Shown here piece after piece: positions 35,789 through 38,688 of a stretch of DNA of 64,000 nucleotides (the first letter of the stretch is position 1; every line of letters starts with the position of its first letter). The notes beneath the pieces are model-generated. The model had not been told where the DNA came from and did no database searches. It saw only the letters and a program-made list of their open reading frames with translations. Source of the stretch: Amycolatopsis sp. DSM 110486. GTDB taxonomy: Bacteria; Actinomycetota; Actinomycetes; Mycobacteriales; Pseudonocardiaceae. The stretch is from contig NZ_CP080519.1 in assembly GCF_019468465.1 (NCBI RefSeq), positions 62,001-126,000 of the forward strand, given 5' to 3'. A program made the translations under genes and the position numbers.

Positions 35789-36784
35789 GTGGACGACGAC
35801 TTCGGCACGCTCCTCGAACGGCACCGCCGGGAGATCCGGGTGCACTGCTACCGGATGAGCGGTTCGTTCGAGGAAGCCGAGGACCTCACGCAGGAGGCGT
35901 ACCTGCGGGCGTGGAAGGGCCGGGGCGGGTTCGAGGGCCGGGCGAGCGTGCGGACGTGGCTGTACCGCATCGCCACCAACGTGTGCCTCGACGCCCTGGC
36001 CCGCCGGCCCCGCCGCGTCCTGCCGGACGAGCTGGGCGCGGCCGCCGACCCGGCCGGCACGCCTGCCGCGCTCGACGTGCCGTGGCTCGGCCCGATCCCC
36101 GACGCACTGCTCGACGCCGCCTTGATCGACACCGCGGCCCCGGACGACACCGGCGCCGCGGTGGTCGAGCGCGAGACGATCGAGCTCGCGTTCCTCGCCG
36201 CCATCCAGCACCTGCCGCCCCGGCAACGCGCGGCGCTGGTCCTGCGCGACGTCCTGGACTGGTCCGCGAAGGACACGGCGGCGGTGCTGGAGACGTCGGT
36301 GGCGTCGGCCAACAGCGCGTTGCAGCGCGCTCGCGAAACCCTGCGTACGCACTTGCCCGCGCGGCGTGCCGACTGGGCTTCCGCCGGCGCGACCACGGCG
36401 GAGGAAGCCGAGTTGCTGCGCCGGTTCATCGCCGCGTACGAAGCGGGCGATCCGAACGCGGTCGCGGAATTGCTGCGCGAGGACGCGCGGGCCGTGATGC
36501 CGCCGTACTCGCTCTGGTTCGACAGCCGCGAGCGGATCATCGCCGCCCTGCGCACGAGCATGGACGCGGAGTCACCGTATTTCACGGGCTGGTTCCGGAT
36601 GGTCGCGGTGCGTGCGAATCGGCAGCCCGCCGTGGCCACCTGGGTACGACGGCCCGGGGAGAGTGGGTTCCGCCGGTTCGGCATCAGCGTGCTCACGGTG
36701 GAGCACGGATTGGTCACGGCGGTGGCGGCGTTCGAAACGGCGTCGTTTGCGCCGTACGGATTACCGGAGACGCTCTCGGAATGA
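35789..36784 (+). CDS. ECF sigma factor with C-terminal SnoaL-like domain
   Basis: A 331-residue extracytoplasmic-function sigma factor of the SigG-like type with an NTF2/SnoaL-fold extension. Region 2 (LLERHRREIRVHCYRMSGSFEEAEDLTQEAYLRAWKG, about 8-75) and region 4 (FLAAIQHLPPRQRAALVLRDVLDWSAKDTAAVLETSVASANSALQRARETL, about 140-195) are clear; residues 205-325 form the SnoaL-like domain, which in related factors modulates activity in place of an anti-sigma factor. No anti-sigma gene is nearby. GTG 35789 lies 15 bp after the exporter stop, so the two are probably co-transcribed. Confidence 0.9.
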   Translation: MDDDFGTLLERHRREIRVHCYRMSGSFEEAEDLTQEAYLRAWKGRGGFEGRASVRTWLYRIATNVCLDALARRPRRVLPDELGAAADPAGTPAALDVPWLGPIPDALLDAALIDTAAPDDTGAAVVERETIELAFLAAIQHLPPRQRAALVLRDVLDWSAKDTAAVLETSVASANSALQRARETLRTHLPARRADWASAGATTAEEAELLRRFIAAYEAGDPNAVAELLREDARAVMPPYSLWFDSRERIIAALRTSMDAESPYFTGWFRMVAVRANRQPAVATWVRRPGESGFRRFGISVLTVEHGLVTAVAAFETASFAPYGLPETLSE

Positions 36785-36914: not shown

Positions 36915-37184
36915 TCAGGCGGCTTGATGCCGTTCGGCGGCGGAGCGGGTGCGAACCAGCTTGCGGCGCTCCAGCTCGGTGGTTCCCCCGAAGATGCCGT
37001 TGTCCAGCCCGTTGTCCAGGGCGTAGGAAAGGCACGCTTCGCGAACCGGGCAGCGCGCGCAGACCGCCTTGGCCTCGTCGACCTGACGGGCTCCGGGGCC
37101 GACGTCCGAAATCGGGAAGAACAGTTCCGGATCCTCGTCCTGGCAGGCTGCGCGGGACAGCCAGCCGGTGCTCGTGAGTTCCAT
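36915..37184 (-). CDS. WhiB-family iron-sulfur transcription factor
   Basis: An 89-residue Wbl protein. The four cluster-binding cysteines are Cys14, Cys42, Cys45 and Cys51 (CARCPVREAC), the Wbl turn is GIFGG (63-67) in GIFGGTTELERRKL, and a basic tail follows. These proteins bind [4Fe-4S] and act with the main sigma factor at promoters. AGGAGGTGAAA lies 9 bases before ATG 37184. It is divergent from a SigD/ShbA-type sigma gene; whiB and sigD-type genes are neighbours in mycobacteria and streptomycetes too. The subgroup cannot be fixed by eye. Confidence 0.95.
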   Translation of the reverse strand: MELTSTGWLSRAACQDEDPELFFPISDVGPGARQVDEAKAVCARCPVREACLSYALDNGLDNGIFGGTTELERRKLVRTRSAAERHQAA

Positions 37185-37551
37185 TGTTGCGTTTCACCTC
37201 CTGTCGAACATTGTCTTTTCTCGGTCAACCGACTTCTCCGGGCGCACGGCGCAGCACAACTCCAGGGAGCTGTACAGCTCGGGTGACGCTCGGTGGGCTT
37301 TCGGTCGACCCCGCAAGACCACTGTGCCCCAGGTAAGGACAGCGGCCCGCGGACGACCGAAGTTTCAACTTACCACCGATGGCGGTTGTTCCTAAGAGTT
37401 ACGGGCCCAGCTCACACTGATCTTCTGTTGTGCCAGGAGAGGTACCCGCGCGAACGCGTCGTCACACGTGGTGCCGACATCGAATCGTTACACCTGGCGC
37501 CGCCCTCACCGCACCTGTTCCTACAGCAGAGCGGACAGGGCGGGGGTGGGC
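37185..37551. promoter_or_regulatory. Divergent intergenic region between whiB and the sigma gene
   Basis: A 367-bp gap with lower GC than its surroundings. It holds the whiB ribosome site and, at 37267-37280, a perfect 14-bp palindrome GAGCTGTACAGCTC. The long leader upstream of whiB and the AT-richer patches near 37190-37230 and 37370-37430 are probable promoter regions. No coding sequence is supported here. Confidence 0.6.
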
Positions 37552-38688
37552 GTGGACGAATTCGACGGGTTCTTCCGCGCCGAGTTCCCGCCTCTGGTGG
37601 CCTTCGGCTGCAAGCTGGGCCTGGACCCGGCGGCGGCGCGCGAGGCCGCCGCCGACGCGCTGCTGCAGGAGGCGCAGGTGTGGCCGCCGCCGGACGATCC
37701 GCGCGCGCGGGTGCGCCTGGGCGTGCGGGTGTTCGCCGGGGAGCAGGTCCCGGCGGACGACGGTCTGACCGCGCTCGTCGAGCGGAACGCCCTGGGGGTG
37801 GAGCTGCTCGCGACGCTGCCGGACACGCAGCGCACCGTGCTGGCGTGGTCGCTCGACGGCTTCGCCCCGGCCGCCATCGGGACCGCCCTCGGGATGCCGG
37901 CCAGCACGGTGCGCTCGAACCTGCGCCACGCACGGGAACGACTCAACCGCCGGGTGTCGCCCTTGCCTGGCGTGCCGGATTTGTCTGTCTTGCCGGATGG
38001 GGAGGACGCCCTCGTGACCCTGCTACTGGAAGCCGACGCGACGCTGACCGGAGCCCTTCGCCGGGGCCTCGATGTGGAAGCGACGCTCCGGCACGTGAAA
38101 TCCCGCACCGCGGCGCGCTTCCCCGACCACTGGCACCACCTCGACGGCCCCGTCGCCGCCGCCACGGCCGGCGACCGCCTCGCGGCCGCTCGGCTGTTGG
38201 AGGCCGTCCGCCCCCTGGTCGTCCGCTACTGCCGCGGCCGTCTCGGCGGATCCGACCGCGCCTACGCCTCCGCCGACGACGTGGCCCAGGAGGTGTGCGT
38301 CGCGCTGCTCGCCGCCCTGCCGACGTACCGCGACCAGGGCCGCCCATTCCTGGCCTTCGTGTACGGCATCGCGCAACACAAGGTCGCCGACGCCCACCGC
38401 GCGGTCGCCCGCAACCGCACCGACCCGGTCGCCGACCTCCCCGACCGCACCGACACCGCGGACGGCCCCGAGCAACTCGCCCTGCGCACCGAGCTCACCA
38501 CCCGCCTGGCGCGCCTGCTGGACGTCCTGCCGGACCGCCAGCGGGAGATCGTCCTGCTGCGCGTGGTGGTCGGCCTCACGGCGGAGGAGACGGCGGAAGC
38601 AGTGGGCGCTTCGCCGGGCGCGGTGCGGGTGTCGCAGCACCGCGCGTTGCTGCGGCTGCGGAACCTGCTGAACGGCGGGCAGGGGTGA
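37552..38688 (+). CDS. Tandem sigma-factor protein: ECF-like module fused to SigD/ShbA
   Basis: One open frame of 378 residues with two sigma modules. Module 1 (1-135) has a weak region 2 (DEFDGFFRAEFPPLVAFG) and a clear region 4 (LLATLPDTQRTVLAWSLDGFAPAAIGTALGMPASTVRSNLRHARERL). Module 2 (about 205-378) matches SigD/ShbA: VRPLVVRYCRGRLGG, SADDVAQEVCVALLAALPTYRDQGRPFLAFVYGIAQHKVADAHRA and LPDRQREIVLLRVVVGLTAEETAEAVGASPGAVRVSQHRALLRLRNLL. ShbA drives the principal sigma gene in Streptomyces. The linker (about 37955-38010) has poor codon use, and GGGGAGGA (37999) stands 7 bases before an in-frame GTG at 38014, so a separate SigD could also be translated. GTG 37546 is an alternative start. Confidence 0.85.
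   Translation: MDEFDGFFRAEFPPLVAFGCKLGLDPAAAREAAADALLQEAQVWPPPDDPRARVRLGVRVFAGEQVPADDGLTALVERNALGVELLATLPDTQRTVLAWSLDGFAPAAIGTALGMPASTVRSNLRHARERLNRRVSPLPGVPDLSVLPDGEDALVTLLLEADATLTGALRRGLDVEATLRHVKSRTAARFPDHWHHLDGPVAAATAGDRLAAARLLEAVRPLVVRYCRGRLGGSDRAYASADDVAQEVCVALLAALPTYRDQGRPFLAFVYGIAQHKVADAHRAVARNRTDPVADLPDRTDTADGPEQLALRTELTTRLARLLDVLPDRQREIVLLRVVVGLTAEETAEAVGASPGAVRVSQHRALLRLRNLLNGGQG

Follow-up and report, generated by a model that had tools for sequence, protein, structure and literature searches.

A ShbA-type sigma factor joined to a degenerate sigma-like module and a helical tag in Amycolatopsis

In the 64,000-nt stretch of the Amycolatopsis sp. DSM 110486 genome that we analyzed (contig NZ_CP080519.1, positions 62,001 to 126,000; hereafter the window, in whose own numbering positions are given), a single plus-strand gene at 37552..38688 encodes two sigma-factor-like modules with a helical element between them. 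The original prediction described one uninterrupted frame holding a degenerate extracytoplasmic function (ECF)-like module with a good region 4, followed by a complete SigD/ShbA sigma factor, and our analysis agrees with this description. The frame, for which one-frame relatives are known, is free of stop codons and comprises 378 codons plus the stop, with a GTG start. We refer to its N-terminal module (residues 1-137) as m1, to the helical element as the tag, and to the C-terminal module as m2. The latter (residues 195-378, 38134..38685, plus strand) matches the NCBIfam ShbA model NF007230 at 274.4 bits (cut-off 209) over residues 195-373 and holds both region 2 and region 4. At 378 aa and with a second sigma-like module, the product lies outside the size of single-module ShbA proteins (~190-220 aa); its relatives are named simply ShbA or sigma-70 factor in public records.

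The region-4-like part of m1 (residues 84-136, 37801..37959, plus strand) matches Pfam Sigma70_r4_2 (PF08281) at 34.0 bits, above the cut-off of 25.7. The degenerate region-2-like part (residues 1-60, 37552..37731, plus strand) was assigned from alignment of an m1-family profile with ECF region 2 and from AlphaFold helices; the Pfam region 2 family (PF04542) gave no match in the m1 half, and precomputed annotation of proteins P0124-P0195 lists PF04542 in none. The m1-family profile covers ECF sigma factors of solved structure over their entire length, regions 2 and 4 alike (its positions 6-162 correspond to chain residues 83-245 of SigE), and AlphaFold places helices in both parts. Because of the region 4 match, the whole-length profile alignment and these helices, m1 is a full-length but degenerate ECF-like module. 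By eye, its region 2.2 motif is EAAAD in the window, as against DAAAE or DVAAE in the split and orientalis-type relatives described below, while typical ECF sigma factors have D..QE and a cousin of m1 in the same genome still has DAAQE. The glutamine of region 2.2 is important for core binding.

Between the modules, AlphaFold models a hairpin of two helices (residues 150-172 and 175-186) with a mean predicted local distance difference test (pLDDT) score of 92-97 across residues 151-180. The tag motif TLTGALRRGLDVEATLRHVKS (38041..38103, plus strand) lies inside this hairpin and scores 20.7 with a position matrix from whose training set it was left out (shuffled sequences, -5.8 +/- 4.0). Corresponding scores are 7.8 in the mediterranei form, 9.0 in the orientalis form and 17.2 in a more distant fused form. 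The conserved helical element (residues ~150-186) starts just past the segment that had been singled out as a linker (about 37955-38010); the linker proper varies in sequence, and linker and tag together are under weaker constraint than m1 and m2. In the proteins submitted to Pfam, no family covered the tag.

We searched 80 Amycolatopsis genomes (match threshold E <= 1e-79) and sorted the loci into types by match extent and identity. Matches were found in 63 genomes: 30, belonging to two clades, carry the gene as one intact frame, and 28 show a split pattern of the mediterranei type. The window-type clade comprises 15 genomes, 12 of them intact (all 12 read); the exceptions are G204 and G336, in which m1 is frameshifted, and G330, which is cut by a contig end. 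Among the 19 orientalis-type genomes 18 are intact (12 of these read) and G356 is frameshifted. Ten of the 28 mediterranei-type genomes were read base by base and the other 18 were placed by match extent. The last matching genome, G295, is split and represents a separate lineage. In the frameshifted loci (L157 of G204, L158 of G336, L162 of G356) m2 is open, and true decay or sequencing error may account for the m1 frameshift. A set of 24 Amycolatopsis genomes gave 15 whole-length one-frame matches and four cases of two separate matches; the other five had solely ShbA-type proteins among the matches listed, although one of these, G011, was later found to be split (L182). Fused examples include A. 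rubida, A. dendrobii, A. echigonensis, A. jejuensis and A. nivea, and split ones A. eburnea, A. pretoriensis, A. rifamycinica, A. vancoresmycina and others. Proteins of a more distant fused family (~391-401 aa, 45-49% identical) come from metagenomes and other sources, and from another genus of Pseudonocardiaceae (2 of 62 genomes). A sequencing or assembly error, or a stop codon freshly lost in this strain, has a negligible chance of explaining the frame: we found nothing in its favor, and the intact frame in 30 of 80 genomes, the closest of which (G328) is 93% identical, together with a 91% identical protein from another source (P0005), rules it out. The fused gene is old and clade-wide.

The split loci indicate where the frame came from. 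In 15 of 15, the m1 stop reads GTGA, permitting a start of m2 with a 4-nt overlap; five bases past this stop there is also an ATG that is in frame with m2. We therefore dropped the idea that the split genes are strictly coupled through GTGA; the five public m2 proteins checked (P0037-P0040, P0045) start at the ATG past the stop. The junction reads ATGA in G295 and in a second m1-m2 pair of the window's own genome. Most TGA stops bring with them a start codon at a 4-nt overlap, so the overlap itself says little; what is informative is that the genes are adjacent and the frame is open. Two of the ten split loci read (G357 and G360) carry m1 and m2 in the same frame, with just one TGA keeping them apart and the m2 ATG six bases after it; these forms are one stop away from fusion. 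On this comparative evidence, two adjacent sigma-like genes are the source of the frame. The earlier proposal of a stop codon lost between neighboring genes was therefore right about the two-gene origin, for which the adjacent split forms speak, and is not supported, given the clade-wide distribution, if taken as an isolated or recent event.

In a tree from joined m1 and m2 columns, which includes the long branches L114 and L164, the window-type, orientalis-type and mediterranei-type loci each form one group, and the orientalis type joins two split pairs (96/98). Forcing both Amycolatopsis fused clades together was rejected (approximately unbiased, AU, test, p = 0.0139). The window type and mediterranei type are closest to each other (95/84 in the m2 tree, 100/100 in the m1 tree), although with m1 alone the split sequences of the mediterranei type are not resolved as a single group. 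The trees thus give the fused clades separate ancestry. As the tree uniting the fused clades is rejected, the fusion probably arose at least twice, unless fission of genes also occurred; a single fusion with the two clades as one group is excluded by the AU test, and fusion followed by fission remains the alternative. In the distant fused family, m2 clusters with the canonical ShbA from the other genus (100/97), which points to a third origin.

The canonical shbA gene of the same genome lies elsewhere (C1:4580576, locus L111), followed by the gene for RsdA and preceded by a bldM-like gene, as judged by product; its protein is 72% identical to m2 and its region gave no match to the tag matrix. 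RsdA was absent from all 25 loci searched (the 64-kb window and 24 fetched loci), and the idea that the tag derives from part of RsdA was rejected by profile comparison (probability 6%). Because a canonical shbA-rsdA locus exists elsewhere in the genome, the fused gene is a ShbA paralogue. This bears on the suggestion that the fused protein acts as the ShbA that drives the principal sigma gene and so alters its control. That m2 belongs to the ShbA family, and that Streptomyces ShbA transcribes hrdB and shbA itself in vitro according to an excerpt of PMC9205884, would fit such a role; with canonical shbA and rsdA in the same genome and m2 just 72% identical to that copy, we did not find the suggestion borne out and regard it as highly improbable. 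The second m1-m2 pair of this genome (G000:C1:7152585-7153717; positions 4586-5718 of L114) is split; its m1 retains the DAAQE motif mentioned above, its m2 is highly diverged, and no whiB match was found within the fetched 10.5 kb. In Lentzea albidocapillata (L068, 6001-8836) there are, in our reading, three consecutive ShbA-like matches on one strand, with another ECF-like frame ahead of the third. We also considered whether m1 corresponds to the gene that precedes sigD in a different family within the order and rejected this, as the gene in question (L025) encodes a repeat-type helical protein, TPR-like in our own reading, and no sigma factor.

We next consider m1-like genes beyond these loci. 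We searched 297 genomes of the family with the m1 profile, scoring at most 11 candidates per genome, and fetched 40 more m1-like genes, namely all listed matches outside known loci down to E 8.6e-29. With L114 and L164 added (n = 42), the reading frame that follows the m1-like gene carries the tag in 31 cases at p <= 0.01 and in 33 at p <= 0.05, leaving out one locus, rather than one clade, at a time, and keeping the background-looking L203, L205, L212 and L214 in the count. An exact 4-nt overlap opening is possible in 26 of the 42 frames. As controls we fetched 20 genes, hand-picked from lower matches of the same profile and not in unbroken order, so that they are weaker matches of that profile; three lacked a usable frame and the tag appeared in 1 of the 17 scored. 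The tag-bearing control (L226) may itself belong to the system. Because 15 tagged proteins (L185, L187-L197, L199, L201, L202) share a C-terminal stretch like ADL...G.RWS..TRWP, the 42 cases are not independent and this set represents one kind of payload; once it is set aside, 16 of 27 frames carry the tag (p <= 0.01). Several of the 15 have long D/R/A/L-rich repeats, and Pfam recognized no family in the four scanned (L185, L189, L191, L199).

By its matrix score, then, the tag recurs on other payloads, with a consensus of about ..AL...LD[VIL][DE]AGL..I. Pfam identified TIR (L177, 2e-14), vWA (L198, 8e-12), EAD2 (L211, 1e-18), cold-shock (L186, 2e-7) and ATP/GTP-binding, i.e., GTPase-like (L213, 6e-14) payloads, while L179 gave a weak receiver match below the cut-off. 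A ShbA-type sigma factor follows in L176, L178, L181 (where the tag reaches only p = 0.033), L182, L114 and L164, and a remote one in L180. We considered L214 as a fused m1-ShbA frame and took it, given its weak ShbA score (E 2.4e-15), for an ordinary sigma factor. Two short tagged proteins (L183, L200) terminate in PPVIG followed by a single residue, which may be a C-terminal signal. Pfam recognized no domain in five relatives found for one tagged protein, and family lookup returned none for 9 of 10 proteins. These observations allow the tentative idea, to which we give rather less than an even chance, that m1-like proteins descend from sigma factors and act as keepers of a short, portable tag, which the next gene, often able to open in a 4-nt overlap with the keeper's stop, places on interchangeable payloads across Pseudonocardiaceae (TIR, vWA, EAD2, cold-shock, GTPase-like, ShbA-type sigma and one large family without a name), the window gene being keeper, tag and sigma factor in one polypeptide.

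For the window protein itself we favor, at about even probability, a three-part alternative sigma factor in which m1 and the tag form the on-board regulatory unit of a ShbA-type sigma factor. The C-terminal unit would perform transcription, and m1, with its impaired region 2 and good region-4 helix-turn-helix, would close around the hairpin in the way that sigma factors do around anti-sigma helices of the NepR, CnrY or RsiW type, thereby holding or releasing the attached sigma factor. Relatives have m1 as a protein of its own, whose gene lies immediately ahead of that for the tag-bearing sigma factor and overlaps or abuts it; fusion would have placed both in one chain. Given that m1 regularly precedes a tagged protein and that the two have fused in separate lineages, binding of the tag by m1 is most likely, and m2 may be inhibited and released through m1. 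Models of m1 are closed and resemble sigma factors held by anti-sigma helices.

Structure predictors, however, often close ECF sigma factors. The window gene also contains a possible second start. The original prediction had noted a Shine-Dalgarno (SD)-like site 7 nt before an in-frame GTG at 38014, and we confirmed this site, GGGGAGGA (37999..38006, plus strand), ahead of the GTG at residue 155 (38014..38016, plus strand). Where m2 formerly began, 17 of 18 loci of the window clade retain an ATG or GTG in frame, with an SD-like site (the exception being L159; several species were fetched twice, and L002 and L157, which did not fit the search pattern, are outside the count), compared with an SD-like site at 43 of 327 other in-frame ATG/GTG codons of these genes; we regard it as a possible internal start. 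A public A. jejuensis protein (P0046, 228 aa) begins exactly here with the frame open upstream (L034), and the frameshifted m1 of G204 and G336 precedes an open m2. If m1 were a leftover leader, for which these observations speak, free m2 from the internal start would be the working product and the fusion would be neutral. However, purifying selection acts on m1 in both fused and split clades, and the orientalis clade, with such a start in 0 of 13 loci, has kept the frame. The ratio of nonsynonymous to synonymous substitution rates (dN/dS), given here for the rubida group, orientalis, mediterranei and the window type taken widely, was 0.15, 0.18, 0.25 and 0.35 for the region-2-like part of m1; 0.19, 0.26, 0.29 and 0.25 for its region-4-like part; and 0.16, 0.12, 0.10 and 0.22 for m2. 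Linker and tag gave 0.30, 0.40 and 0.55 in the fused sets, and the N-terminal part of m2 in the split set 0.26. We therefore consider the leftover-leader explanation improbable. Under the three-part reading, the kept start could additionally supply free m2 in the window clade, where it may be in use. The A. rubida protein P0009 (382 aa) does not start at the internal site, and this difference in annotated starts from P0046 masks the fusion in one of two sister species. Short proteins are also recorded for A. circi and A. jiangsuensis, where m1 is cut by a contig end or frameshifted, and for A. ultiminotia, covered here at the protein level.

Dual DNA recognition and sigma mimicry are the main rivals. 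In the first, region 4 of m1 would be a second reader of -35 or upstream DNA, so that the fused protein chooses promoters bearing two elements and m1 is a specificity module and no inhibitor; a Pfam-grade region 4 under purifying selection (dN/dS 0.19-0.29), next to a region 2 without a Pfam match, speaks for this. It leaves unexplained why m1-like genes precede tagged TIR, vWA and EAD2 genes, and by eye region 4 of m1 looks eroded in the distant fused family; we consider it unlikely, if the most credible of the alternatives. In the second, m1 would act like the sigma-like domain of PhyR, capturing an anti-sigma factor that acts on the ShbA-type unit and so freeing it, a partner switch within a single chain. 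This seems somewhat less likely again: no anti-sigma gene was found nearby in a search limited to RsdA, a receiver domain is absent, and, because region 4 of m1 is not ShbA-like, a shared anti-sigma factor is not obvious.

A divergent WhiB-family gene (36915..37184, minus strand, 89 aa; PF02467, 87.2 bits) adjoins the fused gene in 35 of 35 orthologous loci, some from the same species fetched twice; whiB is present in 18 of 20 loci fetched later (missing from L164 and L174) and does not adjoin the split pair of G295. Its nearest paralogue in the same genome is 54% identical, and some link between the fused gene and WhiB may exist. Alignment of the 35 intergenic regions revealed a conserved block, ATCGTTACA...GCACCTG (37484..37519, no strand assigned), in which ATCGTTACA is invariant and GCACCTG nearly so; this is probably a promoter or regulator site. 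Corynebacterium SigD elements are given as GTAAC(A/G) and GAT in an excerpt of PMC6338062. Inspecting the surroundings of the block by eye, we saw GTAACG on the minus strand and no GAT at plausible spacing to it. Among the matches listed, the whiB-side genes are common to all three groups, and the downstream gene is common to the window and mediterranei types and not to the four orientalis-type loci compared. Just beyond whiB lies a further ECF sigma factor gene with a SnoaL-like C-terminal domain (35789-36784, plus strand), with which three sigma modules fall within 3 kb; among the matches listed, it occurs in most of the window-type (not A. jejuensis) and mediterranei-type loci compared, and in none of the four orientalis-type ones.

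The arrangement resembles several known systems in part. Like ShbA/SigD ECF sigma factors (NF007230), m2 matches over its whole length and has the region 2 and 4 folds, whereas the window gene differs by the N-terminal m1 and tag, by the lack of an adjoining rsdA and by being a paralogue of the canonical copy. Some ECF sigma factors carry a regulatory extension instead of an adjacent anti-sigma gene; here the extension is N-terminal, sigma-like and encoded by a separate adjacent gene in relatives. SigO-RsoA of Bacillus also consists of two sigma-like proteins from neighboring genes, but splits regions 2 and 4 between its subunits, while each window module holds both and m2 is complete. PhyR with NepR offers a degenerate sigma-like module with a predicted closed fold on a helical partner; the fused protein (P0001) has no receiver domain match at E <= 1, and its module is tied to a working sigma factor. 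Actinobacterial conflict systems with effector-associated domains (EADs) likewise place a short N-terminal element on varied payloads (here TIR, vWA and one EAD2), although their partner is an NTPase and the constant partner of the tag is a sigma-like protein. EAD2 occurs solely in one distant payload, L211; Pfam found no known EAD in P0001, and PADLOC gave no match. In an excerpt of PMC8195603, TRADD-N and caspase conflict systems are linked with ECF sigma genes and with helix-turn-helix domains that are ECF-like; these are near in spirit to the window gene and different in architecture. The excerpts of PMC8103513 and PMC7406223 contain no two-sigma fusion, the sigma terms sought were not found in PMC7159879, and two sigma-like modules in one chain appeared in none of the titles and abstract openings of the literature searched.

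That one gene pair has fused separately in different lineages is strong comparative evidence for joint action of its products, and the existence of split, one-stop-away and fused natural versions makes direct comparison of one system possible. The same tag on quite different partners hints at an undescribed form of sigma-factor control. If m1 is indeed the keeper of the tag, it would constitute an undescribed sigma-derived control module acting on many payloads, and the window gene would encode a sigma factor leashed by another sigma.
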